Virus record (IMG/VR): IMGVR_UViG_3300036792_000065
Span: 1 to 36,671 of that record
From: a virus
DNA: 36,671 nucleotides
Direction: 5' to 3' (one strand)
Each line of letters starts with the position of its first letter. Position 1 is the first letter of the stretch. Shown one piece after another: positions 1,769 through 34,821 of the stretch. The position numbers and the translations under genes were made by a program. Below the pieces are notes generated by a model. That model searched no databases and had not been told where the DNA came from. It saw only the letters and a list, made by a program, of their open reading frames with translations.

Positions 1769-1777
1769 CCCGCCTCC

Positions 1778-9506: not shown

Positions 9507-9555
9507 AGCCCCTCACTAAATACTTAACTATACTAAACAGTTTTAGTGAGGGGCT
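9507..9555 (-). terminator. 14-bp perfect stem-loop in the 9399-9572 gap
   Basis: The arms 9507-9520 (AGCCCCTCACTAAA) and 9542-9555 are perfect reverse complements around a 21-base A/T-rich loop. The right arm can also pair with 9532-9537, giving a competing small hairpin. No clear U-run follows on either strand, so a factor-independent terminator is not proven. RNA processing or attenuation between the membrane/peptidase gene block and the tail genes is equally possible. The remainder of the gap shows no open frame. Confidence 0.5.
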
Positions 9556-21641: not shown

Positions 21642-21648
21642 TTATCAG

Positions 21649-21924
21649 CTAAGCTCCGAACGCATGCGAGTGGAAAACGACGTTCTGGCCTGCGGTCCCA
21701 GAGACCGCATAAACAGGCTTACCGAGCAAGCCGAGCGCTGCAGCATCAAGGACCACCGGCACAGGCATATTCGGAGGCAGTGTCGCTACCGCATTACCTG
21801 TAGTGACACCAGGCCCGCCGATGCCAACAGCTACCGTGCCAGTGTTCCTCAGCGTCAAGACTGGACTTGACGTGCAGAGCAAGGTAGCCGAAGTACCTGC
21901 ATTGACCGCGCCATCATGGGCCAT
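21649..21924 (-). CDS. Small beta-sandwich-like protein, unknown
   Basis: A 91-residue protein just upstream of the terminase gene. Its ATG abuts the TAG of the previous gene. It reads as a compact beta domain: SSPVLTLRNTGTVAVGIGGP near 20-40, PPNMPVPVVLDAAALGLLGK, then PVYAVSGTAGQNVVF. The R-N-T-G and G-G-P pattern recurs in small phage virion proteins of unknown role. It has no HTH and so is unlikely to be the small terminase. A capsid-decorating role is a guess from composition. Confidence 0.65.
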   Translation of the reverse strand: MAHDGAVNAGTSATLLCTSSPVLTLRNTGTVAVGIGGPGVTTGNAVATLPPNMPVPVVLDAAALGLLGKPVYAVSGTAGQNVVFHSHAFGA

Positions 21925-22167
21925 CTAGTTCCAGCCTCCGCCGTCATCTTGGAAGCCGCGCTGCCGATCCGTCATGAACTGGCCAGTAGCTGGAATCGAT
22001 GGGTACGAGCCAACGTCGTCGGTGTCGTTGTCGCCATCGTTGCGCGACTGGTACCCACCGATCCCAACGAAGCCGTTGGAGTCATCAGGTTGCTGCCAAG
22101 GCAGGTTCCCGGACTGAGCGTTCACTTCCGGAGAGTGATTGTAGGCCGCACCATGATTGTCAGCCAT
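21925..22167 (-). CDS. 80-residue polar protein, unknown
   Basis: Starts MADNHGAAYNHSPEVNAQSG after AGGAGGAACAA. It is rich in Asn, Gly, Asp and Gln, with GNLPWQQPDDSNGFVGIGGY and a C-terminus RQRGFQDDGGGWN. It looks largely disordered. Its N-terminus loosely recalls the two genes upstream (Met, polar residues, His-Ala, Tyr), suggesting a family of small leader proteins at the start of the late transcript. Function unknown. Confidence 0.6.
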   Translation of the reverse strand: MADNHGAAYNHSPEVNAQSGNLPWQQPDDSNGFVGIGGYQSRNDGDNDTDDVGSYPSIPATGQFMTDRQRGFQDDGGGWN

Positions 22168-22176
22168 TTGTTCCTC

Positions 22177-22431
22177 CTAAACAGTTGGTATGATGCCCAT
22201 ATCTGAAGTCGAGGCTGGATCTATTGGTCCTCGACCTGAGTTGACAACATCGCTAGGAGTCATCTCGCTCAGACCAGCAAAGTCACACTGGTTCGAGCCT
22301 CCGGAGAAGTCCTGTCCAACAGGTCCAGAAATAGTGTCGGCCGAGATCTGCCAATTTTGGACAGGACCAGCTTGCGTCGCTGTCTCCCGCCCAGGTGCCG
22401 CGTAGTAGTTCAGCGCATGCTGGTCGCTCAT
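22177..22431 (-). CDS. 84-residue polar protein, paralogue of the next gene
   Basis: Starts MSDQHALNYYAAPGRETATQ, clearly related to MSNQHASKYYFGPGTETNAG encoded at 22428-22622. The two align for about 20 residues and then diverge (here QNWQISADTISGPVGQDFSG). The genes overlap by four bases (ATGA). No domain is recognised. The conserved start with a variable rest resembles a shared targeting or assembly signal, but that is inference. Confidence 0.65.
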   Translation of the reverse strand: MSDQHALNYYAAPGRETATQAGPVQNWQISADTISGPVGQDFSGGSNQCDFAGLSEMTPSDVVNSGRGPIDPASTSDMGIIPTV

Positions 22432-22622
22432 GAAGAACCGCGCCGCTTGTCTTGAACGACTGGTGCGTTGAGACCTGGCTGCGGGGTCGAGAAGTCTGCG
22501 GGCGTGTCAGAAAGCGCGGCCGGCGCAGTCTCGATTTCTACGTACGTATCGATCGTCCCTGAACCAGCATTCGTCTCGGTGCCTGGTCCAAAGTAATACT
22601 TTGACGCATGCTGATTGGACAT
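22428..22622 (-). CDS. 64-residue polar protein, first gene of the late transcript
   Basis: Begins MSNQHASKYYFGPGTETNAG 28 bases downstream of a TATAAT box, with GAGGGAGAGTT before the ATG. It shares its first 15-20 residues with its neighbour encoded at 22177-22431. The remainder is acidic and proline-containing (IETAPAALSDTPADFSTPQP) with a basic end (DKRRGSS). No domain recognised. Confidence 0.65.
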   Translation of the reverse strand: MSNQHASKYYFGPGTETNAGSGTIDTYVEIETAPAALSDTPADFSTPQPGLNAPVVQDKRRGSS

Positions 22623-22649
22623 AACTCTCCCTCTACGCTCCTTAACTCC

Positions 22650-22670
22650 ATTATATACTAGATACTAGTA
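22650..22670 (-). promoter_or_regulatory. Late (leftward) promoter -10 with adjoining dyad
   Basis: On the minus strand TATAAT lies at 22655-22650, 28 bases before the first late ATG. Directly upstream, in the -10/-35 spacer, 22656-22670 is a perfect dyad TACTAG-ATA-CTAGTA, well placed as an operator. No good -35 hexamer is seen, so an activator may be required. Confidence 0.5.
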
Positions 22671-22721
22671 ACCCGCACGTGAGACGCTCTATAAATTTTC
22701 AAGAAAACTCACAAGAACCTA

Positions 22722-22751
22722 TTGCTTAGCTCTGTTGTCTCGTGATATAAT
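22722..22751 (+). promoter_or_regulatory. Rightward early promoter (TTGCTT-18-TATAAT)
   Basis: TTGCTT at 22722-22727 and TATAAT at 22746-22751 are separated by 18 bases, a good sigma-70-type promoter about 50 bases before the first early gene. A short dyad TTTTC-AA-GAAAA at 22696-22707 lies just upstream. The 22623-22802 gap holds this promoter, the leftward promoter and no gene. Confidence 0.65.
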
Positions 22752-22802
22752 TTTCATATGCGAGATAATCCGAGAAAATCCTAGAGAGAGGTCACAATAC
22801 AA

Positions 22803-23069
22803 ATGGCTGAGCGTGTCGAGGGTGCCACAGAACCGCGTAGGAGGCGGTGGTACCCATGGCAGGAATGGACAGATGGATCCGTCTGGAGCGCTAAAAAAGA
22901 CAAGGACTTCAACTGCAGTCCTGCTAGCTTCCAGACTGCACTACATCTACGAGCTCGTCAGCAAGGTCTCAGCGTAGTTACAGGCAGCCCAGAGCCTGGA
23001 GTAGTCGAGTTCCAGTTCACTAAGAAGACAGAAGAGGAAGTAGTCGATGCCGACACCTCCGTCGAATAG
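22803..23069 (+). CDS. W..TDG..W small protein family, copy A
   Basis: An 88-residue, first gene of the early unit. Residues 16-72 carry the pattern WYPWQEWTDGSVWSAKKDKD, then SFQTALHLRARQQGLSV and VEFQF. The same layout occurs in the products of 24845-25072 (TDGSIWKAIQDEDF, SFRTLLRYQARKRNI, VVWFQF) and, more weakly, 27359-27580. Basic N-terminus (TEPRRRRW) and helix-strand order could suit nucleic-acid binding, but no named domain is recognised. Being first after the early promoter suggests a regulatory or host-takeover role (inference). Confidence 0.72.
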   Translation: MAERVEGATEPRRRRWYPWQEWTDGSVWSAKKDKDFNCSPASFQTALHLRARQQGLSVVTGSPEPGVVEFQFTKKTEEEVVDADTSVE

Positions 23070-23220
23070 GCATCCACAGGAGCCGTTCACGGAGCTCCAA
23101 GAAAGCGCAGCCCAAGTTCATGAATATCATCTGTCTCTAGTAAGTGCAGGATTTACCGAACAGCAAGCCCTATATCTCACAGGTCAACTGATCCGAGCTC
23201 TAGTTGCTAAGGCGCAGTAA
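23047..23220 (+). CDS. 57-residue helical protein, unknown
   Basis: ATG at 23047 with GAGGAAG eight bases upstream, overlapping copy A by 23 bases. It stops at 23220, four bases before the ATPase gene start. It reads MPTPPSNRHPQEPFTELQES, then a helix pair HLSLVSAGFTEQQALYLTGQ and LIRALVAKAQ. Similar short 'GFTExQALYL' proteins occur in many actinophages near replication genes, from memory. It may be a small accessory of the ATPase, with no direct proof. Confidence 0.72.
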   Translation: MPTPPSNRHPQEPFTELQESAAQVHEYHLSLVSAGFTEQQALYLTGQLIRALVAKAQ

Positions 23221-23223
23221 GAA

Positions 23224-24156
23224 GTGCCAGAACTAGATATCGATGAGCTCCCGGTACCTCCGCCTAGTAGCAAAGCTATCCAGAAACGCGCCCAGATGTT
23301 CCTAGAACAGCAGCTAGGTGATCAACGAGGCAAGCATGAGCTCATCGAAATGATTGCCGACGCGGAGTACTCGCTTCCAGCTCCGCAGTTGTATCCAGAC
23401 TTTCTAGCCATCGACTTCCACGCACCACGATATCGCATCGACCAGCTCTGGCCGTTCGGTGGAACTGTCTTGCTCGCAGCTAGATACAAGTCTGGCAAGA
23501 GCACTCTAAAGCTCAACCTCCTGCGCTGTCTAGCTCGCGACGAACCTTTTCTAGGACAGTCCGTTATTCCGATCGGTCCTGATGAAACTATCCTTGACGT
23601 TAATCTCGAGGTAGACGAGCGCACGCAACAGCACTACGCTAGGCCTTTCAATCTGCCTAGTAACTCTCTCGTCCTCAACCTGCGAGGTCAAGCCAAATCG
23701 TTCAATATCATTAGTGATACGATCCGCGGCCGCATTGCAACGATGCTTAAGGACTTCAATGTTAAGGTCCTCGTCGTCGACCCTCTAGGACCGCTCATTC
23801 GTGTGTTCAACCTGAACGAGAATAGCAACTCATCAGACGGAGGTGGAGCACTTGTCGAAGGATTCAACGAACTGGCCTACGAAGCTGGTGGTATCGACAT
23901 CCTCCTGGTTCACCATACGGGGCATAACGCTCAACGGAGGGCGCGAGGTGGTAGTGTTTTCGGAGACGCAGCCGACGCTCTCTGGTCGTATCGCATCGGA
24001 GGCGCAGGCCGAAGCGATGACGAGGAATATGAGGCTGATGAAAAGGGCGTTCGGTACTTCAGCGCCACAGGACGACTAGAGTCTGACATGCCTGAATTTC
24101 CAGTCTTCTTCGACGAACGAACGCATCATCTTTCAAGGACACCGGCGCTGCTATGA
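23224..24156 (+). CDS. RepA/DnaB-like RecA-fold ATPase
   Basis: A 310-residue replication ATPase of the RepA/AAA_25 type, starting GTG at 23224. The P-loop is AARYKSGKST at 85-94 (Ala instead of the first Gly, Lys92). Walker B is KVLVVDPLG at 181-189. The His-His of LLVHHTGHN at 228-235 and R-A-R-G-G-S-V-F at 239-246 are hallmarks of the hexameric RepA/KaiC-like group. The C-terminal strands YFSATGRLESDMPEFPVFF close the domain. It probably unwinds DNA at the phage origin together with the polymerase encoded at 25723-27000. The N-terminal 60 residues are helical, perhaps for hexamer contacts. Confidence 0.85.
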   Translation: MPELDIDELPVPPPSSKAIQKRAQMFLEQQLGDQRGKHELIEMIADAEYSLPAPQLYPDFLAIDFHAPRYRIDQLWPFGGTVLLAARYKSGKSTLKLNLLRCLARDEPFLGQSVIPIGPDETILDVNLEVDERTQQHYARPFNLPSNSLVLNLRGQAKSFNIISDTIRGRIATMLKDFNVKVLVVDPLGPLIRVFNLNENSNSSDGGGALVEGFNELAYEAGGIDILLVHHTGHNAQRRARGGSVFGDAADALWSYRIGGAGRSDDEEYEADEKGVRYFSATGRLESDMPEFPVFFDERTHHLSRTPALL

Positions 24157-24446
24157 ACTACCAAATCAGTCCTGTCTACCTAAATGGCCCGCTAAAAGAC
24201 CAAGAGCATCCGATCGAGAGAGGAGCGGGCGGCCTCGAGACGATCGACCCTAATACGAACAAGACCCACATTTATCAATTCAAGAAGTTCGGCTGGGCTT
24301 CAGGTAATACTGCTCTCTACATTTGGATCGCCTGGTGTGGTCCCGACGAGCCAACTGCAATGGCTATTGCCAAAGCGCTCATAAAGCCTGAACTTGTTAC
24401 AAAACTAATAAGTCCTCCAACTCCGAACATGCCAGGCATCCTATGA
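24153..24446 (+). CDS. 97-residue protein, unknown
   Basis: ATGA overlap with the ATPase gene. It starts MNYQISPVYLNGPLKDQEHP; the 'xGPLxDQEH' phrase near the start is like the GGPLDGQ motif of many small actinophage proteins. KTHIYQFKKFGWASGNTALY follows, and a Pro-rich tail (SPPTPNMPGIL). It might be a small alpha-beta protein. No function assigned. Confidence 0.68.
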   Translation: MNYQISPVYLNGPLKDQEHPIERGAGGLETIDPNTNKTHIYQFKKFGWASGNTALYIWIAWCGPDEPTAMAIAKALIKPELVTKLISPPTPNMPGIL

Positions 24447-24649
24447 TAACACCTGTCTATATACGTCACAGAGTCGGTCGGTGTCCAAGATGCAGCGGGC
24501 CGCTTCTTGATGCGGGGTGGACCGACGATCCTAACGGCTGGACTCACTCAGTTCCAGCATGTAATGGTCGCCCTATCAAGCCTACGCCGAATGCACTAGG
24601 CTACGGTCCTTGCTCGATGTACCTCACACGAACGGCGAGCATCGTATGA
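24443..24649 (+). CDS. Small zinc-binding protein, tandem copy 1
   Basis: A 68-residue protein starting MITPVYIRHRVGRCPRCSGP; the Cys pair C14-x2-C17 is followed by DAGWTDDPNGWTHSVP, a Cys at 40 and GPCSM near 57. The following gene product (24646-24843) matches it over the first 35 residues and again at PCSM, so the pair arose by tandem duplication. The Cys-x2-Cys plus later Cys/His suggests a zinc knuckle. ATGA overlaps on both sides show tight translation coupling. Confidence 0.72.
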   Translation: MITPVYIRHRVGRCPRCSGPLLDAGWTDDPNGWTHSVPACNGRPIKPTPNALGYGPCSMYLTRTASIV

Positions 24650-24843
24650 ACGGTATCCCTGTCTACATCAGGCACATAATAGGTTATTGTGCAATATGCG
24701 GAGCACCTATTCTCGACGCAGGCTGGACAGATGACCCGAATGGTTGGGCACATTCTATACCTGTACACCTACACGAAGGCACCTGGGGCTGGGGCCACCC
24801 GCTCCTCTTCGCTCCATGTTCTATGGCACTAAGCGCGAGATGA
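24646..24843 (+). CDS. Small zinc-binding protein, tandem copy 2
   Basis: 65 residues from the ATG at 24646, which overlaps the preceding TGA (ATGA). Longer starts inside copy 1 are less likely. It reads PVYIRHIIGYCAICGAPILD then AGWTDDPNGWAHSIPVHLHE, parallel to copy 1. The end has APCSMAL as in copy 1. C11-x2-C14 and two His provide possible zinc ligands. The divergence between copies is strongest between residues 36 and 55. Confidence 0.74.
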   Translation: MNGIPVYIRHIIGYCAICGAPILDAGWTDDPNGWAHSIPVHLHEGTWGWGHPLLFAPCSMALSAR

Positions 24844-24844
24844 T

Positions 24845-25072
24845 GTGGCTCCAAAGATCGGCCGCCCTTCTAAGTACGACTGGGAAACGCTAACAGACGG
24901 CAGTATCTGGAAAGCAATACAAGACGAAGACTTCGACGCTACTCCTAAGAGCTTCCGAACGCTACTACGTTACCAAGCGCGTAAACGAAATATACCGGTC
25001 AAGATCCACGTTCGTGGAAAAGTCGTTTGGTTTCAGTTCTCTAAGGCGGACTTAGGGTGGCGAGCTGGTTGA
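24845..25072 (+). CDS. W..TDG..W small protein family, copy B
   Basis: 75 residues from a GTG at 24845, two bases after the preceding stop. DWETLTDGSIWKAIQDEDFD, SFRTLLRYQARKRNIPVKI and VVWFQFSK align with copy A without large gaps. The basic first residues (APKIGRPSKYD) resemble an AT-hook-like GRP patch. Function unknown. Confidence 0.7.
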   Translation: MAPKIGRPSKYDWETLTDGSIWKAIQDEDFDATPKSFRTLLRYQARKRNIPVKIHVRGKVVWFQFSKADLGWRAG

Positions 25073-25497
25073 CCGTTAGTGATGCTGATTGGGTAGCACT
25101 CACAGCAAGATTCGCAGGTCTACGCGGAGGTAGGGTAGATGAGCGCGGCCGAGTAATATATCGGTCGGAAGAAGAAATGCGACGCATGTTCAACCTAGGA
25201 CTACCAAGCAGTCCATTGGGAGAGTCGGAAAGAGTCCGATATCGCACAATCGTCCGTGAAAGAGTTCGGGAAGTCGACGGAGACACCAAGTTCAATGACC
25301 CCTACTTCGAGCTCGAGTGGCTACGTGTTCAACGCGAAGACCCTAGTCTCCTAACTAATGCCGAAGAAAACCGCGACGTTCTATGGAATGCATTCTACGC
25401 ACGCGATACAATTAAACGGGGCGGCTGGCGCAGACTCTGGAGTCAGAAACTAGGTCGTCCAATGAGCCCGAATGAAGTAGACTACGGAGATACGTGA
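25057..25497 (+). CDS. 146-residue charged protein, unknown
   Basis: GTG start at 25057 overlaps copy B by 16 bases. The product is strongly charged (GRVDERGRVIYRSEEEMRRM, then ERVRYRTIVRERVREVDGD) with a C-terminal helix AFYARDTIKRGGWRRLWSQK. It lies between ATPase and polymerase genes, in the replication block. No known domain; a role in DNA metabolism is plausible by context only. Confidence 0.68.
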   Translation: MASWLTVSDADWVALTARFAGLRGGRVDERGRVIYRSEEEMRRMFNLGLPSSPLGESERVRYRTIVRERVREVDGDTKFNDPYFELEWLRVQREDPSLLTNAEENRDVLWNAFYARDTIKRGGWRRLWSQKLGRPMSPNEVDYGDT

Positions 25498-25739
25498 TGT
25501 CCGAATCTCTTAGACTCAAGGCCCTAAAGCGTCGCTGGAATCAATTCTGGTATCGCTGGGGTATCCTTTATATCGGCCACGTAGATGACGTCCGAAAGCT
25601 AACTCAGCACGGATACTTCTGCGGCTTCACGATCTTGAAGTCACACCGCGCCTATCTCATCATGCCACTGAACCGGCTCGCAGAGAAGCGATACGCCAAG
25701 AAAATCAAAGCTTGGGGCGGGCATGCAAAAGTTCGATAG
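25497..25739 (+). CDS. 80-residue basic protein, unknown
   Basis: ATG at 25497 forms TGATG with the preceding stop; an upstream in-frame GTG at 25494 would add one residue. Very basic and aromatic: LKALKRRWNQFWYRWGILYI, FCGFTILKSHRAYLIMPLNR, KKIKAWGGHAKVR. It overlaps the polymerase gene by 17 bases. It could be a polymerase accessory or DNA-binding protein, from charge and position only. Confidence 0.68.
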   Translation: MSESLRLKALKRRWNQFWYRWGILYIGHVDDVRKLTQHGYFCGFTILKSHRAYLIMPLNRLAEKRYAKKIKAWGGHAKVR

Positions 25740-27000
25740 CTGGGATGTCAGCGACGCTCCGAAGCCTTCTAAGCTTACTCCGGAAGCCAGAAAGAAGCTC
25801 GCCCGAGAACGCGAACTAGCCAAAAGACGTCACGTCTTCGTTCCGCTTACTACACACTTCGCAGACCTTGAAGGCACACAGGTCTGCTACGGAGACCTAC
25901 GAAAAGTAGCCAAACGTATCGCAGACACGTTTCAAGACAACAAGCAACGTATCATCTTCAGCGAAGGAATTCCGATACCTACATCTTGGGGCAAGGTATG
26001 TATGCATACCTACAAAGAAGGCACCCAAGTTACAGGTGGAGAACTGTGGTACCAAGTAGGGTCTAATCCTAAGAGGACTAACCACATCTTCGACGTTCGT
26101 CCTTTTTTCTTGCAGTCACGTGCAAAAACAGCGGCTCTATACGGAACTAATGATCCACCTACAATCATGGAACAGGCTCGAACAGAACTAGCCGAAGTCG
26201 GACTACGAGCATACCAGAACCGTTGGTTCCGAAATTCATCAATAGCCGACTTTCTATTTCACGAAATGAAGATCGACCTAGATCGTATACCGATAGTAAA
26301 ACATGGATTCGACTCTACAGCCGAAATCGGATCAGCAGCATGTGGATATATCCCAGGACCTATCCACGAATACGATCTAGTTAGTGCTTACGCCTCTACC
26401 ATGCTCGAATTTCCGCAGCTAGGCGAGTTCGCACAAGCACTAGATGATGCCCGTAAGAAACTAGAAGGAAAGCCTACCGCACGAATCCTGAAGGTGACTC
26501 AAAGTGTCTTGCCGGGAAAGTTTCTATCAGCCAAGCTACCAACGTTCCGTCCAGACTTGGGAACTTACATACGCGGAACGACACGAGCTCGGCTCATTGA
26601 TGCGATGCAAAGAACTGTCAAGAACTATGGTACTGTTTATCGATGGAACACTGACGGATTTTTCACCAACGTCGATATTTCTTCCGAGCTCGATATCGGA
26701 AACGCACTTGGTCAATGGAAGCATACGGTTCACGATTACCTCCTCATCGTCCAGACTAACATCTTCAAAACCGACAGTAAGGTTAGAGACTGCGGATTCA
26801 ACGTCGACTGGGACGCCGCAAGAGCTAACCCTCTAGAGGTTCGTGCAACAATACCAAACATCGACTGGACGACACTAGAACAAAAACTAGTTCCTAAGGT
26901 ACTCCGGTTCGACGGAGGCTATCATAACTGCAAACGAGACGGTTATGGATGTCGCGATGAGTATCACTACAAGCGAGAAGCCGTAGATCAGTGCTGGTAG
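25723..27000 (+). CDS. Compact divergent family-B DNA polymerase
   Basis: A 425-residue protein with family-B palm motifs in order. Motif A is EYDLVSAYAST with Asp218, Ser221, Tyr223 and Ser225. A motif-B-like stretch ILKVTQSVLPGKF lies at 255-267 (compare KxxxNSxYGKF). The helix GTYIRGTTRARLIDAM precedes motif C, YRWNTDGFF at 306-314, which has Asn309 and Asp311 in place of DTDS. Motifs A and C are only about 95 residues apart, so terminal-protein inserts (TPR1/2) are absent. The N-terminal part resembles a worn exonuclease domain (HIFDVRPFFLQSRAKTA, then GLRAYQNRWF) but lacks a clear DxE and the Asp of the YxxxD motif. It is probably the phage replicase. Confidence 0.72.
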   Translation: MQKFDSWDVSDAPKPSKLTPEARKKLARERELAKRRHVFVPLTTHFADLEGTQVCYGDLRKVAKRIADTFQDNKQRIIFSEGIPIPTSWGKVCMHTYKEGTQVTGGELWYQVGSNPKRTNHIFDVRPFFLQSRAKTAALYGTNDPPTIMEQARTELAEVGLRAYQNRWFRNSSIADFLFHEMKIDLDRIPIVKHGFDSTAEIGSAACGYIPGPIHEYDLVSAYASTMLEFPQLGEFAQALDDARKKLEGKPTARILKVTQSVLPGKFLSAKLPTFRPDLGTYIRGTTRARLIDAMQRTVKNYGTVYRWNTDGFFTNVDISSELDIGNALGQWKHTVHDYLLIVQTNIFKTDSKVRDCGFNVDWDAARANPLEVRATIPNIDWTTLEQKLVPKVLRFDGGYHNCKRDGYGCRDEYHYKREAVDQCW

Positions 27001-27008
27001 GTAAGAAA

Positions 27009-27254
27009 ATGTCAGAACTCGGTTATATCCAATGGAAATCACATACTATCCCTATCACTCATATCGAATTTCACCATGGCGGCGCAAAAGCGTGTGCAGA
27101 AGGTGAAGGGCCGTTCGAGCCATACAATGGTCCAGCCGACATTTACGGAACTGATGGCTTTCTAGTTAATGTCAGAAAAAGTGCCATAGTAGTGCCAAGG
27201 ATTAAAGCTCGAGAGCGTATCGAGCTCGACCTTTATATAACGTTCGACGATTAG
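27009..27254 (+). CDS. 81-residue protein, unknown
   Basis: ATG at 27009 with TAGGTAAG upstream, preferred over a GTG at 26991 inside the polymerase gene. It reads MSELGYIQWKSHTIPITHIE, then FHHGGAKACAEGEGPFEPYN, and ends with strands AIVVPRIKARERIELDLYIT. It looks like a small beta-rich domain. It is the last gene before the 104-base gap, so it closes the first early operon segment. Confidence 0.66.
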   Translation: MSELGYIQWKSHTIPITHIEFHHGGAKACAEGEGPFEPYNGPADIYGTDGFLVNVRKSAIVVPRIKARERIELDLYITFDD

Positions 27255-27288
27255 TACGAACCGTAATTGCATTGCAAAAAATAACTAG

Positions 27289-27338
27289 AGCTTTTTTCGC
27301 TGAAACTATTGTAAAAAAGCTAGTACTTATGTGATAAT
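27289..27338 (+). promoter_or_regulatory. Internal early promoter with overlapping inverted repeat
   Basis: The 27255-27358 gap is A/T-rich. AGCTTTTTT (27289-27297) and AAAAAAGCT (27313-27321) form a perfect 9-bp inverted repeat. TTGTAA (27309-27314) and GATAAT (27333-27338), 18 bases apart, look like -35 and -10 boxes. The right arm of the repeat covers the -35, so a repressor or a hairpin could control the second early segment. Confidence 0.5.
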
Positions 27339-27358
27339 TAGATAGAGAGAAAAACAAG

Positions 27359-27580
27359 ATGACAACGGCAGACTATAGCCGGGAGCTGAGAGAATCAGCC
27401 CAAGATGGTCAATGGAAAACAGCTAGGCAGGTTAATCCTGCTGATTTTCCGAGAGTAACACACAGACTACGTTATCAAGCAACACAACTTGGTCTGACAA
27501 TCAGAATAAATACGGATAAACAAGAACATACAGTCTCATTTCTTACGTGGAACGAATCGCGAGAGGAGAGAGAGCGATGA
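27359..27580 (+). CDS. W..TDG..W small protein family, divergent copy C
   Basis: 73 residues after AGAGAGAAAAACAAG. It lacks the TDG box but keeps the order Q(D)GQWKTARQ, RVTHRLRYQATQLGLTIRI and TVSFLTW. This matches the second half of copies A and B (LRYQARKRNIPVKI, then VVWFQF). Like copy A it is the first gene after a promoter-like region, which makes a regulatory role attractive though unproven. Confidence 0.65.
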   Translation: MTTADYSRELRESAQDGQWKTARQVNPADFPRVTHRLRYQATQLGLTIRINTDKQEHTVSFLTWNESREERER

Positions 27581-27753
27581 CCGAATTCAACCAAGACCAT
27601 GTTGAATCCATACAATATCGCTCCTTGGACATGCATGCGGACGTGAGCAACCACACTGTATCATTTCAAACCTGGGCGCTGACGCTCAGACAAACCAGGG
27701 AGCACAATACGAGATGCACTACTGTCATAACTGCCGTTGGTGGAGACTGCTAG
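27577..27753 (+). CDS. 58-residue protein, probable partial duplicate
   Basis: ATG at 27577 overlaps the preceding TGA, with GAGAGGAGAGAG upstream. It reads MTEFNQDHVESIQYRSLDMH, and its SNHTVSFQTWA matches EHTVSFLTWN at the end of copy C, at DNA level too. It may be a decaying duplicate of that gene. It overlaps the next small gene by 40 bases, so its reality is less sure. Confidence 0.5.
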   Translation: MTEFNQDHVESIQYRSLDMHADVSNHTVSFQTWALTLRQTREHNTRCTTVITAVGGDC

Positions 27754-27839
27754 TGGACGGCGTATATTGTAGCTATTGTATTAAATGGTTCCACACTCAC
27801 GGTACGCTGCCAACAGGCCGTGAGGTAGAATCAAAATGA
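27714..27839 (+). CDS. 41-residue double Cys-x2-Cys mini-protein
   Basis: Starts ATG at 27714 and ends TGA at 27837-27839, overlapping the next ATG (ATGA). The product MHYCHNCRWWRLLVDGVYCS continues YCIKWFHTHG. Cys4-x2-Cys7 and Cys19-x2-Cys22 make a compact four-Cys zinc ribbon. Upstream GGGAG lies 11 bases from the start. Function unknown; protein or nucleic-acid binding is typical of such mini-ribbons. Confidence 0.65.
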   Translation: MHYCHNCRWWRLLVDGVYCSYCIKWFHTHGTLPTGREVESK

Positions 27840-28144
27840 ACAACACCACTCAGCCCATCACGCAACGCCTTCTTAAAGGCTCGGCGGGGTGGGTTTACGT
27901 AACGATCGAAATCGCTATTTGGGACTATATCGTCGAAGAAGACGAACAGCTAACAAGAGCGTTCAGACGTGGTCTCAAGTCACCATCAGGCAAAATTCTT
28001 ATCTGCACCTGCTGGAGCATTCTGACTGCTCATCTCTTCGGTTTAATACCGAAGAATTTCGACCCTATCTATATCGCAGCCGAAGCAGCACAAAGAAGGA
28101 GACGTCGTGAACAAGCAAGAAGTCAACCGACAAGAGAGAGCTGA
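27836..28144 (+). CDS. Small membrane-associated protein (DUF7427-like)
   Basis: 102 residues. The run WVYVTIEIAIWDYIVEEDEQ, LTRAFRRGLKSPSGK, ILICTCWSILTAHLFGLIPK and FDPIYIAAEAA recalls a small protein family common in mycobacteriophages. Those have 'W...vaiyE...gedeqLS..v.....HP....I.....ahLln.iP...DP' layouts, which I recall as DUF7427 (name from memory). One or two membrane-embedded helices are likely. Its role in phages is not known. Confidence 0.68.
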   Translation: MNNTTQPITQRLLKGSAGWVYVTIEIAIWDYIVEEDEQLTRAFRRGLKSPSGKILICTCWSILTAHLFGLIPKNFDPIYIAAEAAQRRRRREQARSQPTRES

Positions 28145-28346
28145 GAGTAATGAGGCCCGCTCGACAGCGCATCGAACAGGCAACTACCGATTCGAACCAT
28201 TTCAGAGCACGGAGGAACGTGTGCAGCGACCGTCCAATTGTTATGGATGCTCATGGGAATACGTCCCGAGGCGCAAGACTTATCGGCTCAAGTTCCAGCA
28301 TAAGCTCTGCTACCCGAACCATGAGCCCATGCAGGCAGCCTCATGA
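28107..28346 (+). CDS. 79-residue Cys-containing protein, unknown
   Basis: GTG start at 28107 preceded by AAGGAGACGTC. The N-terminal half is polar and disordered-looking (NKQEVNRQERAESNEARSTA). The second half has NCYGCSWEYVPRRKTYRLKF then QHKLCYPNH, with Cys45-x2-Cys48, a later Cys and His as a possible zinc site. Stop overlaps the next ATG (ATGA), which favours this frame over the overlapping 28150 frame. Confidence 0.62.
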   Translation: MNKQEVNRQERAESNEARSTAHRTGNYRFEPFQSTEERVQRPSNCYGCSWEYVPRRKTYRLKFQHKLCYPNHEPMQAAS

Positions 28347-28570
28347 CTCCTGAAGAGCGAAAAGCCGTTGACAAAGCTGCCAGGGCATTCTCAATCTCGC
28401 CAAATCCAGCTCTAGCAGATTCACTGCTCAGACTGCTCGGTCCTCATCGACAAGACAACGAACACATTCGGAATACGATCAACTACGTGCTCGACTATAA
28501 GTTCCTCGTCGGAAACATTGACAACCCTAAGGAGGTAGCCTCATCCTCCGACCAGGAACTTGTTCTATAG
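28343..28570 (+). CDS. 75-residue helical protein, unknown
   Basis: Starts MTPEERKAVDKAARAFSISP with ATGA coupling to the previous gene. Helices NPALADSLLRLLGPHRQDNE and IRNTINYVLDYKFLVGN follow, and the tail is acidic. It precedes the lysis-type genes by 20 bases. No family recognised. Confidence 0.66.
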   Translation: MTPEERKAVDKAARAFSISPNPALADSLLRLLGPHRQDNEHIRNTINYVLDYKFLVGNIDNPKEVASSSDQELVL

Positions 28571-28590
28571 TCAACCGTTAGGAGTTATCA

Positions 28591-29223
28591 ATGCGGAACC
28601 TGTCTGAAAAGATCTTCGATCGCATCGTTAGCCACCACGTTTCCCGTCGCAAAGTCGTAAGCTACGCAGCCGTAGGAATTGCAGGCGTAGCAGCCGCAGC
28701 GACGATCCACTACTACACGGTCCAGCCTGGCGACACCTTGTCGTCGATCGCGGCTAGAGCGTGCGGAAACGCTAGCGACTGGACCGGAGTCTATCAGCAG
28801 AACGCAGACGTGGTGGGGGGCAACCCCAATATGATCTATGCAGGACAGCGTCTACAGTTCAAGTGCAACGCGGCAGCCATTCAGACCGAGATAACTACTA
28901 CCGCAGCACAACCGATCACGCCCGCAAGCTCAAGCGGGAGCAGCGCAAGCACTAAAAGTGTTTATGTCGCTCCCGCACCCCAGGCCCCGTCAGGGTCGTT
29001 TCAAGCATGCGTGATCAGCCGCGAGTCAGGTGGCAACTCTCAAGTCATGAACTCCTCAGGTCACTACGGGCTCTATCAGTTCAGTGCGAGCACGTGGGCA
29101 GCCTATGGAGGCAACCCGTCGGACTTCGGCAACGCGTCCGTATCCGAACAGAATGCAGTGTTCGACAACGCCATGGCTACTCCTAATGGCGCGTCTAACT
29201 GGTCCCCCTATGATGGCTGCTAA
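28591..29223 (+). CDS. LysM + Rpf/transglycosylase-like cell-wall hydrolase
   Basis: 210 residues with TAGGAGTTATCA before the ATG. A membrane anchor or signal lies at about 22-40 (VVSYAAVGIAGVAAAATIHY). A LysM domain lies at 40-92 (YYTVQPGDTLSSIAARACGN ... NPNMIYAGQRLQF). A Ser/Thr/Ala/Pro linker spans 100-135, then a resuscitation-promoting-factor-like lytic domain spans 137-210: ACVISRESGGNSQVMNSSGH with putative catalytic Glu145, then YGLYQFSASTWAAYGG. It would cut glycan strands, probably exported by its own N-terminus. It overlaps the NlpC/P60 gene by 14 bases, forming a two-enzyme cassette. Confidence 0.85.
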   Translation: MRNLSEKIFDRIVSHHVSRRKVVSYAAVGIAGVAAAATIHYYTVQPGDTLSSIAARACGNASDWTGVYQQNADVVGGNPNMIYAGQRLQFKCNAAAIQTEITTTAAQPITPASSSGSSASTKSVYVAPAPQAPSGSFQACVISRESGGNSQVMNSSGHYGLYQFSASTWAAYGGNPSDFGNASVSEQNAVFDNAMATPNGASNWSPYDGC

Positions 29224-30043
29224 CAAGCAGCCGCAGCGGAGTCGCCGACGACCGTGTGATCACTGTCGTCGGCGGCACCGCCGCATAGCGGCTACAGGAA
29301 TAGCGAGCGCCCTGCTCGCTATAGGTGTAAGCCTCAGCATCGCTGAGCTACCTACTGGAAACGGCGCTCAGCTAACTGCAGCAATGAGCATTCCGACTCG
29401 CGTCCACGTTCATTCGATCAGCACAGGCCCGAACGTGACATCTGCTCAACAGCTACAGGAACAAGCCAAAGTGGCAGATCTAGCACTCGTACACGCGAAG
29501 CTGGTCAAGGCAGAAGCACATGCCAGCCCATCCCCCACCCATAGCACCATCATCGCTTCTATACCTAATCCTACTACTCCCGCCCCTACTCATAGCAGTA
29601 CTCCAACCGCTCCTACTCCGACGCCGTCGACACCAACACCGACGGTAGCAGCAGTTGCAACTGTCAGTCCAGCATCAAGTAGCAATCTCGGAGCGGAAGT
29701 CCTAGCAAAAGCCGAAACTATGCAAGGAGTGCCTTATGTCTACGGCGGAGATACTCCGTCAGGTTTCGACTGCTCAGGCTTGATTTACTGGGCATCACAG
29801 CAGCTCGGAATTACCGGAATGCCTCGAGACACCTACGCGATGCTTGGTCAAGGCGTCTCTAACGGCACGCTAGTTCCGACTAGCAATCCGCAAACTGGAG
29901 ACCTAGCGTTCTTCGGCTCTGGGCATGTCGAGATCTACATCAAATCCGGACAGACCTTCGGAGCGCAGCAACCAGGTACCAATGTAGGATTCCACTCCTA
30001 CGGGTACGGTTACGTTCCGACGGCGTTCTACAGCATTCACTAG
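29210..30043 (+). CDS. Membrane-anchored NlpC/P60 peptidoglycan peptidase
   Basis: 277 residues from the double ATG at 29210/29213; the frame extends further upstream but would lie deep in the preceding gene. The N-terminus is basic with CDHCRRRHRR, then one membrane helix at 26-47 (IAATGIASALLAIGVSLSIA). A long Pro/Thr/Ser linker (about 105-150) leads to an NlpC/P60 domain at 158-277: PYVYGGDTPSGFDCSGLIYW with Cys188, then QTGDLAFFGSGHVEIYI with His239. It would cleave stem peptides next to the glycan-cleaving enzyme encoded just upstream. No separate classical endolysin is visible, so this pair may do that job. Confidence 0.85.
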   Translation: MMAANKQPQRSRRRPCDHCRRRHRRIAATGIASALLAIGVSLSIAELPTGNGAQLTAAMSIPTRVHVHSISTGPNVTSAQQLQEQAKVADLALVHAKLVKAEAHASPSPTHSTIIASIPNPTTPAPTHSSTPTAPTPTPSTPTPTVAAVATVSPASSSNLGAEVLAKAETMQGVPYVYGGDTPSGFDCSGLIYWASQQLGITGMPRDTYAMLGQGVSNGTLVPTSNPQTGDLAFFGSGHVEIYIKSGQTFGAQQPGTNVGFHSYGYGYVPTAFYSIH

Positions 30044-30052
30044 AGAGGAATC

Positions 30053-30367
30053 ATGTTCGAACCGGTTCAGATCATCGGTCTAGGCACTATCGGGGTCAGC
30101 CTTATCGTCGCAGGCGCAACCAAGTTTGGCCGGTGGATAGAACGCCAAACGCAGGCTGCTGAATTCCGTGCACAGAAGCGGCGATGGTTCGAAGAGGTAG
30201 CGCCGACGATCGACTGGACCGTTCGCGACTGGCCTCCAGTTGGAACAGCCTCCGCCACCTTCTTCGGTACCGACATAGTCGCGTACGATCCCGAGGCGGA
30301 TGCTCGCGAGCACATAGCCAAACTACATCGAGAGACCCAGGAGTACATCCAGAGGATACGCGCATGA
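30053..30367 (+). CDS. Single-span membrane protein after the hydrolase genes
   Basis: 104 residues, with GAGAGGAATC before the ATG. One helix at 6-26 (QIIGLGTIGVSLIVAGATKF) is followed by a basic helix IERQTQAAEFRAQKRRWFEE, then a soluble acidic part with HIAKLHRETQEYIQRIRA. The position right after two wall hydrolases suggests a lysis accessory or holin-like role, but the large cytoplasmic domain is not typical of a holin. Confidence 0.66.
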   Translation: MFEPVQIIGLGTIGVSLIVAGATKFGRWIERQTQAAEFRAQKRRWFEEVAPTIDWTVRDWPPVGTASATFFGTDIVAYDPEADAREHIAKLHRETQEYIQRIRA

Positions 30368-30633
30368 ATACCGACGAACTATTCAAGGAAATGGAAGCCT
30401 TCGATAACGAAGGCCCCGCCTACCTGTCCCCCTGCAGCTACGCAAAGATCCGCCCAGTTAGTGGTCCGCAAATCTACGGGTGGATTCGCTCAGGACAGCT
30501 GAACTCGAAGTACTGCGAATGCGGTCGTAAGGTTATCAACGTCAAGGAAGCAGACGATCTGCTTCGACAAAAAGGCAAGCTGCCTAATCTGAGGGAAGAA
30601 GAAGAGCAGGACGATGTCGGACGCGACGATTAG
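30364..30633 (+). CDS. HTH DNA-binding protein (MerR/excisionase-like)
   Basis: 89 residues, ATGA overlap with the previous gene. The core SYAKIRPVSGPQIYGWIRSG then CECGRKVINVKEADDLL has the winged-HTH layout of excisionase or MerR-like domains: first helix, recognition helix at 'GPQIYGWIRSG', wing with two Cys (YCECG), then a helix at the end. The C-terminus is acidic (REEEEQDDVGRDD). It may control the early operon. No integrase accompanies it, so an excisionase role is unlikely. Confidence 0.72.
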   Translation: MNTDELFKEMEAFDNEGPAYLSPCSYAKIRPVSGPQIYGWIRSGQLNSKYCECGRKVINVKEADDLLRQKGKLPNLREEEEQDDVGRDD

Positions 30634-30844
30634 GACCAAAATCCTAGCTGCTATCGACAGTTTCGAGAGAGAGGTGCCACTTGATCCTGTTTTCGGCTTG
30701 CAAGGCACACATGCACTAGATATACTCCGCTCGCGAATCGAAGAAGCCTTCAACGACGAGAATAAGAACAACGACGAACCATCCTCATCACCTTACGATA
30801 TCTACGTACAAAACGCTCGTCGGGAGTATGGAAAGCGACACTGA
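30614..30844 (+). CDS. 76-residue helical protein, unknown
   Basis: MSDATIRTKILAAIDSFERE, then FGLQGTHALDILRSRIEEAF and an acidic linker with YDIYVQNARREYGKRH. All-helical and charged. It overlaps the HTH gene by 20 bases and the next gene by one. No family recognised. Confidence 0.66.
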   Translation: MSDATIRTKILAAIDSFEREVPLDPVFGLQGTHALDILRSRIEEAFNDENKNNDEPSSSPYDIYVQNARREYGKRH

Positions 30845-31080
30845 TGCCGAAGATCAGAATACTCCGTCTGCTCGAGTACGTCTACGACAACCCAGAACGA
30901 GCTCAGAAAGACCAGGAGCGCTGGCAAGTCCCAGCTAATGGCTCACGTCTAACAGGGGACATGATCGTTCGTTCATCTATCATTACCGACATGCACTACG
31001 TAGAAGAGACCATCACTATTCCAGCCGCCGACGTTGACGGTTACTATGCTTGGAAGGCTGCACAAGATGACAAACTATGA
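30844..31080 (+). CDS. Conserved actinophage small protein (LLEYVYDNPERA type)
   Basis: 78 residues with TGATG coupling. MPKIRILRLLEYVYDNPERA, KDQERWQVPANGSRLTGDM and IVRSSIITDMHYVEE follow a pattern that is very common among small actinophage early proteins ('llRvlEYvydspeame.D..rW.vp'). Function remains unknown in that group. No catalytic residues are evident. Confidence 0.72.
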   Translation: MPKIRILRLLEYVYDNPERAQKDQERWQVPANGSRLTGDMIVRSSIITDMHYVEETITIPAADVDGYYAWKAAQDDKL

Positions 31081-31426
31081 ACCGATCTGCGGATTCGGAC
31101 CAGATAATAAACACTGTCCGGCGCTCTGGCAAGAACATCAAAGTTCTGTGGACGCAATCGCAGCCGCCAAGAGTCGAGTCGAGGAGGCCGTAAATACGTT
31201 CCTGCGGGATCTCGTATACACCGCACCTGAGATGCTAGGCGAACGCTTGTATCAAGAACTGCCTGGTATCGTTTTGCGAGCATTCAACCCGCCACAAAAC
31301 CTGGCAGGTACGATCGTCGAAGCTGACACCGTTTATACCGATACTATCGCTTTCGATCGCACAAAAACGGTGCCTCAAGATCAGCTCTTCGCAAATCCGC
31401 ATCTAGGCAATTACAAGGGGCGATAA
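31067..31426 (+). CDS. 119-residue protein, unknown
   Basis: ATG at 31067 with GGAAGG upstream, overlapping the previous gene by 14 bases. Starts MTNYEPICGFGPDNKHCPAL; helices AKSRVEEAVNTFLRDLVYTA and ELPGIVLRAFNPPQN follow. The Cys pair near the start might bind metal. The tail is charged. No recognised family. Confidence 0.66.
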   Translation: MTNYEPICGFGPDNKHCPALWQEHQSSVDAIAAAKSRVEEAVNTFLRDLVYTAPEMLGERLYQELPGIVLRAFNPPQNLAGTIVEADTVYTDTIAFDRTKTVPQDQLFANPHLGNYKGR

Positions 31427-31728
31427 TGGCAATCGAAGACCCTAAAGAAGGTCTCGAAGTACCTGATATCTACTACGTCAAGGTCTGGCGTAAAGTTCCT
31501 GGCAGCTACGAGGTCTGGGTCGAAGAGATTAACGAGAAGACCTCAGCTCAGTCATCACTCGGTGCAATGCAGAGCATCGTGGATGCTCAAACAGCCAAGG
31601 TAATGCTCGAGAACAAGCGAGGAACAGAGCCAGAGGCTCCAGAACATCGTCCATCGCTACGAGTACGCATCGGAGTTAAAGACGTTGAAGGCGAGCCACT
31701 AGGTGCTAACGACACGGAGACACAATGA
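31426..31728 (+). CDS. 100-residue protein, unknown
   Basis: Starts MAIEDPKEGLEVPDIYYVKV after AAGGGGCGATA. Alternating strand pattern YYVKVWRKVPGSYEVWVEEI, then helix SSLGAMQSIVDAQTAKVMLE and a strand SLRVRIGVKDVEGE. It may be a small alpha-beta domain. TAATG coupling to the gene before and ATGA to the gene after. Confidence 0.66.
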   Translation: MAIEDPKEGLEVPDIYYVKVWRKVPGSYEVWVEEINEKTSAQSSLGAMQSIVDAQTAKVMLENKRGTEPEAPEHRPSLRVRIGVKDVEGEPLGANDTETQ

Positions 31729-31919
31729 CAAAGGTTCTCATCATTCCACTGCCTGACGGCAATCCTGACTACGCATACTTCAGCTGGGTCAAAGCACTCG
31801 ATACCGAGACTATTACGGTAACTAAATATCAGGTATTCACTGCCGACCTCGATGAAGGATTCCTAGCCCAAGCGAGAGCAGGCTATGCATCGGAACAAAA
31901 CAGGCCTACCGTGGTCTGA
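31725..31919 (+). CDS. 64-residue protein, unknown
   Basis: MTKVLIIPLPDGNPDYAYFS, then WVKALDTETITVTKYQVFTA. Short beta-rich protein with an ATGA start. The final residues overlap the next gene by 35 bases. No function visible. Confidence 0.62.
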   Translation: MTKVLIIPLPDGNPDYAYFSWVKALDTETITVTKYQVFTADLDEGFLAQARAGYASEQNRPTVV

Positions 31920-32876: not shown

Positions 32877-33192
32877 CTGGGGCTCCTCAGAAGACAACTC
32901 CAAGGCCATCTTCACGAATGCTGAAGTACGGGCCGCACGTATCCTCCGGGTCGTGTTCGAAATGCCTATCACCGACCTGGTTCTAATGTACCGGCCCTGC
33001 AGTCGCAATACCATGAGCTGTCTCTTGCGTGGAGTCACATACGCCGACGCAGGCGGACCAATTTCTGCCGGACGAAAGAGTCCAAGTCGAGAGCCTGGAC
33101 CACGCTCGCGCAGGTACAGACTTGGGGAGCGGGATTCCCAAGGGAAAGGAAAGGTATGCGCCTCCAAAAAGGATGGATCGCAGCCGCTGTAG
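32854..33192 (+). CDS. HTH-type DNA-binding protein
   Basis: 112 residues from GTG at 32854 (AAGGAAGCCTA-GTG); a GTG at 32809 without a good site is possible. The core FTNAEVRAARILRVVFEMPI, TDLVLMYRPCSRNTMSCLLR and GVTYADAGG follows the recombinase/HNH-linked HTH pattern ('lt..ev..iR.l...g.s...la..f.vs..ti..il.g.tY'). The C-terminus is basic (RKSPSREPGPRSRRYRLGER). It overlaps the GH16-like gene by 37 bases and may regulate late or accessory genes. Confidence 0.66.
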   Translation: MRSLENPSWGSSEDNSKAIFTNAEVRAARILRVVFEMPITDLVLMYRPCSRNTMSCLLRGVTYADAGGPISAGRKSPSREPGPRSRRYRLGERDSQGKGKVCASKKDGSQPL

Positions 33193-34148
33193 CAACACCA
33201 GCACTACTAGGAGGACTGTTCGGAGCATCGCACCTGACACAAGCCTCAGGACCAACGGCTACGCGACTGACAACACAAGTGACCAGCCAGTCGCTAGTAA
33301 CACAGTTCAGTCCACAGACGCTAGCTAGTAGCGCCTGGAACCCGACGAACCAGCCGGGTAACTGTCCGACAGTGAACAACGGTGCGAGGGTTAACAGCTC
33401 CGGATATGCAGAGATCGACACAAACGGAGCCAACAACGACTGTAGGAGCATGCAGTCGCCAAAGGCGAGCCTGTCGACCGCACCTGGGACCATCTACGAG
33501 GTGCTGATCAAGTTCAGCAGCTTCCACGATTGGCCCGCCCTCTGGATGTATGGGCGCGACTGGCCTAACCAAGGCGAGATCGACGCCGTAGAAGGAGGTC
33601 CGGGCCAGAGCTACGTCACTTGGCACCAGGCTGGCAACCACACTGTCGGCCCTGACTCGTGGGACAACACAGTAGTACCTCACGCTGGAGGTCCTAATAT
33701 CCAGCCTAACGTCTGGACCACAGTAGACATCGCGTTCACTACAACCGGCGTGAGCGTCTACTACAACGGTCAGGACTACGCAGACATCCCCGAAACCGTC
33801 ACGACCGGCGGAAACGACCCGATGTACCTGACCATTAGCGAAGGTTCCTGCAATGCTGATGGTACTAACGTATGCAACGGTGGTACATCACCAGCAGGCA
33901 ACGTTCAGGTTCAGTGGGTCCGTGAGTACAGAACCGGCGGACACATCCTCACGCCGACTCCGGCTCCGAAGGCTACAGTTACACATACTTCGGTGCCAAC
34001 AGTCACACTGCCGAAGGCGGCTCCCATCTACGGGTGCGTAGACAACAACGCACTCATGGATGTCTACACCAACGCCGCCGCCTTCAAGGCATTCCTGGCC
34101 GCGAACCGCGGCAAGTGCCCAGCCGGCAAGGCCGTAACAGTCGGCTAA
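33156..34148 (+). CDS. Secreted GH16-like glycoside hydrolase
   Basis: 330 residues with AAAGGAAAGGT before ATG. Signal peptide at 1-30 (MRLQKGWIAAAVATPALLGG). A beta-jelly-roll at about 60-258 has the GH16 signature GEIDAVEGG with Glu141, Asp143 and Glu146, plus FHDWPALWMYGRDWP before it and YLTISEG after it. A Pro/Thr linker (TPTPAPKATVTHTSVPTVTL) leads to a small C-terminal Cys-containing domain (YGCVDNNALMDVYTNAAAFK ... GKCPAG). It probably cuts beta-glucan or a related envelope or biofilm polysaccharide outside the cell. An enzyme of this type in an early phage operon is unusual. Confidence 0.8.
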   Translation: MRLQKGWIAAAVATPALLGGLFGASHLTQASGPTATRLTTQVTSQSLVTQFSPQTLASSAWNPTNQPGNCPTVNNGARVNSSGYAEIDTNGANNDCRSMQSPKASLSTAPGTIYEVLIKFSSFHDWPALWMYGRDWPNQGEIDAVEGGPGQSYVTWHQAGNHTVGPDSWDNTVVPHAGGPNIQPNVWTTVDIAFTTTGVSVYYNGQDYADIPETVTTGGNDPMYLTISEGSCNADGTNVCNGGTSPAGNVQVQWVREYRTGGHILTPTPAPKATVTHTSVPTVTLPKAAPIYGCVDNNALMDVYTNAAAFKAFLAANRGKCPAGKAVTVG

Positions 34149-34153
34149 CCTAA

Positions 34154-34301
34154 AACGTCCGGCTCGGGACTAGGACGCCCTGGAAATGTGGGACTCCAGG
34201 ATCATCCCGAGCCGGGCCTTGAACGTCCTGTCCAGACCTCTTGGTAAACGCAGAAGGGGTTCCGCGGGCCTGCTGAGGGTCTGGACAGGGCCTTGAAGGC
34301 C
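34154..34301 (+). ncRNA. Two-copy structured RNA element
   Basis: Unit 1 (34154-34223) and unit 2 (34222-34297) both start AACGTCC and end GGGCCTTGAA. Between these boxes lie perfect but unrelated stems: 34159-34169 with 34205-34215 (11 bp, CCGGCTCGGGA), and 34227-34238 with 34278-34289 (12 bp, CCTGTCCAGACC). Unit 1 has an inner 6-bp hairpin 34179-34184/34195-34200. A third small hairpin GGCCTT-G-AAGGCC (34289-34301) follows. Conserved ends with a maintained but re-sequenced stem point to RNA structure under selection. The element lies in the 175-base gap between 34149 and 34323, before a zinc-finger gene. Confidence 0.6.
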
Positions 34302-34323
34302 AAAACCTACACCGGAGTTTCTT

Positions 34324-34821
34324 ATGACGAACCCTAGCGAATCAGCTCTCAAGTCCATGCGAACCATCATTAACCGTACCGAATGTCCGAAATGTGGCGT
34401 GCAAAAGAAGCAGCAATGCGTCTACATGCAAACTCCAGTACCAGGACACCCTAGAGACTGGTATCGACAGCATCGATACTGGAGTCCTAAATATACGAAC
34501 CCTTGGGACCGATACGAGCTATCAGGCAAGCCAATGGAAAAGTTCATTCACAGTGAACGACGGGAACTCGATCGACATCGACACGCCGCCCGTATTCGTC
34601 GACAGAGAGAGCAGCCGCTACCTCGAGGCCTATCACCAGATGGTAATCGAGCAGCTCAGGCCATGCGCAAATGGGACGTCGATGAGTATGCGCGGCTAGT
34701 CAGTTGGTGGCGCGAGTGGGGCTGGCTAATCGAGAACGCCGATGCTATGAGACCTGATGGAACAGTTCGGGGAGATACTTACTGTCTTCCACCACGCGGA
34801 AGCACGTTCCAAGATTACTAA
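34324..34821 (+). CDS. Zinc-finger protein with helical C-terminus
   Basis: 165 residues; CCGGAG lies six bases before the ATG. Residues 18-50 hold TECPKCGVQKKQQCVYMQTP then HPRDWYRQHRY, a Cys-x2-Cys ... Cys ... His arrangement common in actinophage early proteins. A basic helical middle (ERRELDRHRHAARIRRQREQ) and a Trp-rich part (YARLVSWWREWGWLI) follow. Nucleic-acid binding is likely. The structured RNA element lies in its 5' leader. Confidence 0.7.
   Translation: MTNPSESALKSMRTIINRTECPKCGVQKKQQCVYMQTPVPGHPRDWYRQHRYWSPKYTNPWDRYELSGKPMEKFIHSERRELDRHRHAARIRRQREQPLPRGLSPDGNRAAQAMRKWDVDEYARLVSWWREWGWLIENADAMRPDGTVRGDTYCLPPRGSTFQDY

Follow-up and report, generated by a model that had tools for sequence, protein, structure and literature searches.

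Long, interrupted intergenic hairpins are familiar as RNase III sites in phage T7, the early message of which is divided by the host enzyme, and variable hairpins with conserved ends that lie directly past a stop codon are familiar as the attC sites of integrons. A long intergenic hairpin with an interrupted duplex is likewise cut by Streptomyces RNase III, at or beside its internal loop, within the polycistronic rpsO-pnp message (PMC10126417). Beside the genes of actinophages, the ESAS of cluster K mycobacteriophages form repeated, sequence-conserved inverted repeats of 17 bp with variable spacers of 4-13 bp, upstream of gene starts (PMC3203893); the dispersed 17-bp palindromic repeats of cluster O mycobacteriophages are invariant, inconsistently oriented and often inside genes, consistent with DNA sites (PMC4351075). 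TIGR arrays, which go with Tas proteins, are phage stem-loop units that are sometimes tandem (PMC12045711).

The hairpin family described here is new, while the intergenic mRNA hairpin as a kind is already known; we found no description of this element in the papers searched, all from an open-access library. The family departs from RNase III hairpins in having a conserved foot with two fixed 1x1 mismatches and in being dispersed and covarying, and cleavage of its members is something we infer. The cluster K and O repeats are the nearest descriptions, but they are conserved in sequence and differ in kind from hairpins whose stems covary and which, unlike ESAS, begin after a stop codon. Compared with attC, the box sequences are different, a recombinase is missing from 17 of 18 contigs, and the wobble pattern is of RNA type; compared with TIGR arrays, no dual spacers were seen and no Nop-domain Tas protein was present in any of the 18 contigs.

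The source is a 36.7-kb IMG/VR virus record from an uncultured phage (IMGVR_UViG_3300036792_000065), the whole of which (36,671 nt) is called the window below. The host is probably an actinobacterium, since the phage terminase is ~41% identical to those of Streptomyces phages, e.g. KimJongPhill and Zuko. Two hairpin units occupy the gap between a gene for a 330-aa protein, the stop codon of which lies 5 nt ahead of unit 1, and a gene for a 165-aa protein that matched no Pfam or PHROGs family (Table 1). The 330-aa protein matched PDB 5jvv weakly (E 1.1e-4), and its signal peptide was recognised by eye, having been missed by a crude predictor.

The earlier note had reported identical boxes at the ends of both units, and these are exact, AACGTCC at 34154-34160 and 34222-34228 and GGGCCTTGAA at 34214-34223 and 34288-34297. 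It had also placed the end box of unit 1 directly against the start box of unit 2; the adjacency holds, except that the boxes overlap by AA (34222-34223). The perfect stems it saw at matching places were recovered as 11 bp in unit 1 (34159-34169/34205-34215) and 12 bp in unit 2 (34227-34238/34278-34289), extending to 13 and 15 pairs, respectively, with the U.G and G-C pairs of the boxes. When 34100-34340 was dinucleotide-shuffled 3000 times, 17 shuffles contained a single perfect stem of 11 bp or longer and none contained two; the folding z-scores were -3.7 and -3.3 for the single units and -6.8 for the pair together. Rather than being motifs in their own right, the boxes make up the hairpin foot: they pair mutually (AA/UU, G-C, U.G, C-G, C-G) with a C.C mismatch among the pairs; in unit 2 they also flank a G.G mismatch with an outer helix beneath (34215-34220/34296-34301). 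Positions 34215-34217 would be claimed by both the stem foot of unit 1 and the outer helix of unit 2.

Table 1. Features of the hairpin locus in the window, with the sites of a second element in related phages.
Feature	Position	Strand	Basis or remark
Upstream gene, 330-aa protein	33156..34148	+	translation; signal-peptide-like start, glycoside hydrolase family 16-like motif
Unit 1 hairpin: 5' box AACGTCC, variable top, 3' box GGGCCTTGAA, without outer helix	34154..34223	+	perfect 11-bp stem, 13 pairs with wobble; 36.3 bits under the held-out model in a search of this unit by itself
Unit 1 stem, 5' arm GTCCGGCTCGGGA	34157..34169	+	stem search
Unit 1 variable top	34170..34204	+	first 15 nt including stem end (GGACTAGGACGCCCT) shared with a phage G006 unit
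Unit 1 stem, 3' arm TCCCGAGCCGGGC	34205..34217	+	stem search
Unit 2 hairpin: outer helix, G.G and C.C mismatches, long inner stem, variable top	34215..34301	+	55.8 bits (E 4.9e-17) under the held-out covariance model
Unit 2 outer helix, 5' side GGCCTT	34215..34220	+	folds; partner 34296-34301; overlaps unit 1 foot
Unit 2 foot, 5' side: G, A, A, C facing G, U, U, C	34221..34224	+	mismatches G.G and C.C with two A-U pairs between; pairs counted across 35 units
Unit 2 stem, 5' arm	34225..34239	+	15 pairs
Unit 2 stem, 3' arm	34277..34291	+	15 pairs
Unit 2 foot, 3' side (C, U, U, G), and outer helix, 3' side (AAGGCC)	34292..34301	+	pair tallies, folds
Downstream gene, 165-aa protein without assigned function	34324..34821	+	start 28 nt past the 3' box of unit 2
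Second leader-like element	L276 2023; L276 1314; L274 8391; L301 3327; L312 10502	- (all)	

A similarity search of annotated phages with the locus DNA gave no match, and the neighbouring proteins used as bait yielded no relatives in viral contigs, so the terminase was taken as bait instead. Searching the terminase relatives for the unit and the junction gave clear new units in other phages, and viral contigs were then scanned on both strands with a pattern for the boxes plus a stem filter (a bare 14-mer scan had given mostly chance matches). With near-identical contigs merged, ~35 distinct units were obtained in ~20 IMG/VR contigs, many contigs holding 2-4; at the same thresholds, reversed sequence gave 17 matches against 67. 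G014 was retrieved with the same boxes but excluded as a possible chance match (35 bits, 76% GC).

A covariance model, R1, built from 17 units, none from the source phage, found unit 2 in the window, and found unit 1 when that unit was searched alone; unit 1 was probably missed in the whole-window search because the overlapping unit 2 masks it. Nearly all true units scored at least 42 bits, the exception being L295 15034 (138-nt interior, 24.3 bits), and on their opposite strand these units scored 19-36 bits. Neither the annotated isolates KimJongPhill and GuyFagieri nor 199 actinobacterial genomes gave a convincing match to R1; a pattern scan of the bacterial genome collection returned mostly chance matches, the best two scoring 28.7 and 26.9 bits under R1. 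The family was found here only in uncultured phage contigs. The earlier note had been able to name no RNA class for the units, and Rfam 15 agrees, with no match in the window (gathering score), in ten loci (E up to 0.5) or in nine further loci.

We examined the fold by aligning the arms of the 35 units and counting base pairs position by position. Pairing was found in 94.6% of cells and collapsed when the partners were slid by one column; both sides had changed in 16 of the 20 base pairs, and double-changed cells numbered 118, against 35 +/- 5 in shuffles. Compensation extends into the boxes, where U.G became U-A in 8 units and G-C in 2, and one C-G became G-C. It is also seen between homologous units, that of G012 and those of G023 and G025: their outer helices are exchanged, the stem has an additional GG/CC in one but not the other, and every difference is compensated. 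The contents between the boxes had been described as unrelated, which proved too simple, as the stems follow a K-G-Y-Y-C-R-R pattern and some apical modules recur in other phages. In 26 of 35 units the sense strand had the greater stability (p 2.6e-4). Taken together, these features mark an RNA helix in the mRNA sense rather than a double-stranded DNA site, and the RNA reading of the units is strongly supported. The earlier claim of a selected RNA fold is thus upheld by the relatives, by very strong covariation and by the better folding of the sense strand; the claim had been open to defeat if related units were absent from other genomes or if the pairs were DNA-level sites only, and the search instead recovered both source units with a model from which they had been withheld, among relatives with an RNA-like pattern.

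The foot, UGAAC/CUUGA, is nearly invariant. Its G.G and C.C are 1x1 mismatches two base pairs apart in an otherwise continuous duplex, and each was kept unpaired in 29 of 35 units, the 5' base of the C.C being otherwise U or A and never G. Three divergent units have changed the neighbouring pairs while keeping the spacing of G.G, 2 bp, C.C. Reversed sequence was not a valid control for a scan of this architecture because pairing survives reversal, and other mismatch combinations were used in its place; most gave 0-3 matches, and C.C/G.G gave 12, which are probably the same hairpins read on the other strand. A strongly covarying structured-RNA family that is absent from Rfam recurs at gene junctions with an unusual mismatch pair.

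A same-strand upstream stop codon could be placed for 31 of the 35 units, at most 16 nt from the 5' box in 24 of the 31 (median 9), and the median distance from the 3' box to the following start codon is 30 nt, so that most units lie between a stop and a start on the same strand, within putative operons. Directly past a stop codon is the usual place for a terminator, and a long GC-rich hairpin there might halt a share of the RNA polymerases and lower expression of the gene downstream. No U-tract follows the stem (T content is at background, and 32 of 35 units lack a T-run above 2), an absence that is tolerable insofar as actinobacterial terminators can do without one; a simple terminator scan gave no call at the site, the conserved mismatches would be left unexplained, and because the next start is so near there is little room for a promoter in many units, so that full termination would silence the next gene. 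A terminator or attenuator is therefore unlikely, if still worth keeping in view. The same spacing bears upon the idea that the hairpin insulates or couples the two genes in translation, either by masking the Shine-Dalgarno sequence of the second or by preventing reinitiation. The foot would lie under a terminating ribosome, and in a minority of units the outer helix does reach the Shine-Dalgarno region (e.g. G024 21585, G025 4888 and G022 50035); for most units the start codon is too distant, sequestration fails as a general rule, and the mismatches are again unaccounted for, leaving a translational role quite improbable.

The strict sense orientation, the stop-to-start position, the missing U-tract and the lack of promoter room are best fitted by a cis-acting message element. 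Starting from the observed family, fold, covariation, orientation, position and signal-peptide bias (below), we propose, tentatively and at a little short of an even chance, that the units are transcribed as hairpins that separate or protect neighbouring messages, to the benefit of the phage, the reader being host RNase III or a phage RNA-binding protein. One or two hairpins would form at a gene junction of the polycistronic phage mRNA, each with a conserved foot and about 20 bp of duplex, between the stop codon and the next ribosome-binding region. A double-strand-specific reader, most likely host RNase III and otherwise a phage RNA-binding protein, would recognise the duplex with its mismatches and cut or cap the message there, so that two cistrons, often one of them for a secreted protein, would become separate mRNAs of separate stability. 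The ~20 paired positions per unit amount to the duplex of about two turns expected of an RNase III substrate in mRNA, and such a duplex with a mismatch is a typical substrate of a double-strand-specific nuclease. None of the 18 contigs carries a phage RNase III gene, and the host enzyme would have to cut. We know of no RNase III site with a conserved sequence foot like UGAAC/CUUGA; as this foot exceeds the known needs of RNase III, another reader, e.g. a phage protein, may act.

Genes adjoining the units are enriched for signal peptides, found by the crude predictor in 10 of 45 such genes as against 43 of 1962, counts that come from phages of shared ancestry and from a predictor that missed proteins judged secreted by eye in the window, G006, G010, G012 and G023. 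Sets of secreted-protein genes are bracketed by two units in G022, G028, G013 and G023. At G013 576-3008 and G022 42565-44360 (L276; L301 2565-4360), differing secreted genes lie between two units within homologous flanks, the homology starting again at the right-hand unit's 3' edge, and these stretches are possibly exchangeable gene cassettes bounded by hairpins. G012 and G025 have a 63-nt unit in common (90% identity) in non-homologous flanks. Such arrangements, together with a variable hairpin with conserved ends and mismatches right after stop codons, are what a DNA-level site might show if, like attC, its folded single strand served a recombinase in exchanging secreted-protein genes. A tyrosine recombinase was found in just 1 of the 18 contigs, most of which may be fragments, and a Y1 (HUH) transposase of IS200/REP-type elements in none, an enzyme that could be acting from elsewhere; the boxes do not match the attC consensus, and the wobble pairs and stability of the sense strand point to RNA. 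We consider a cassette site very improbable.

The tops of the hairpins are mostly unrelated. At orthologous junctions of G013 and G022 the genes and foot persist while the top changes from 55 to 24 nt, from which most tops seem to be free. Some do recur: different stems in three phages carry GUGUUCCUAGGA...GAGGCUCCGC, and the beginning of the unit 1 top aligned locally with the G006 unit at a score of 25 (shuffled maximum 19). Plain processing needs no such recurrence, which is a point against it, and any final mechanism must explain free and recurring tops alike. The earlier note had thought of a small RNA, a leader or a decoy, for none of which was positive evidence found, the stop-to-start position in the mRNA sense pointing first to a cis-acting element. 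Trans-acting RNAs, cut out so that their tops bind proteins or RNAs (e.g. as sponges or host-defence decoys) with the shared foot as a handle, would suit the recurring tops and the tandem arrays of related hairpins in G004 and G005; they are distinctly unlikely, given that most tops are unrelated and vary in length at orthologous junctions, and that a trans RNA would not require a fixed place and an invariable sense orientation. A bolder combination, and one well on the unlikely side, is a phage RNA tag system, in which the G.G/C.C foot would be read by a dedicated protein or nuclease, messages for secreted proteins would be singled out and separated, and modular hairpins would be set free, their exchangeable tops working in trans; other places in these genomes have tandem hairpin arrays with a related 5' box. 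Should the mismatches form a recognition code, they would represent an RNA-protein interaction for partitioning phage messages, particularly around secreted-protein genes, and repair of one mismatch is predicted to abolish function while making the hairpin more stable.

Other elements were seen in these phages. A second leader-like element consists of a variable hairpin with CGAGGGACTACGGAYGGWCCGTAG after it and lies just 5' of secreted-protein genes in five cases from four phages (Table 1). Tandem arrays of two to three hairpins, with the 5' box AACGTCC and without the CUUGA 3' box, lie at L164 16476-16715 and L171 511-655 (minus strand), directly past the stop codon of a gene for a conserved 203-aa protein. 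Long, hairpin-dense non-coding stretches without an Rfam match occur 3' of the orthologs of this gene (L164 from 16474, L171, L172, L179, L274, L276, L301, L304 and L312), several with GGGACAACGC...CACTGGTGTCCC and some with tRNA-like ends. At L179 4411-4491 (minus strand) ARAGORN called a tRNA whose TTA anticodon would read a stop codon. Genes resembling the 7-deazaguanine pathway are common to many element-bearing phages (L165 10419-11033 and neighbours; G004 21041-31869), FolE being supported by search and QueD, QueE and a DpdA-like protein by eye, which suggests modified DNA in these phages. L165 12526-15960 encodes a DNA polymerase-like protein with an apparent intein-like insertion in an N-terminal part that by eye resembles uracil-DNA glycosylase. 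The window itself holds two further perfect inverted repeats, one of 11 bp (GTCCTGTCCAA; 22309-22367, minus strand) inside a predicted gene, where R1 matched weakly (14.8 bits), and one of 14 bp with a 21-base loop (AGCCCCTCACTAAA; 9507-9555) between predicted genes.
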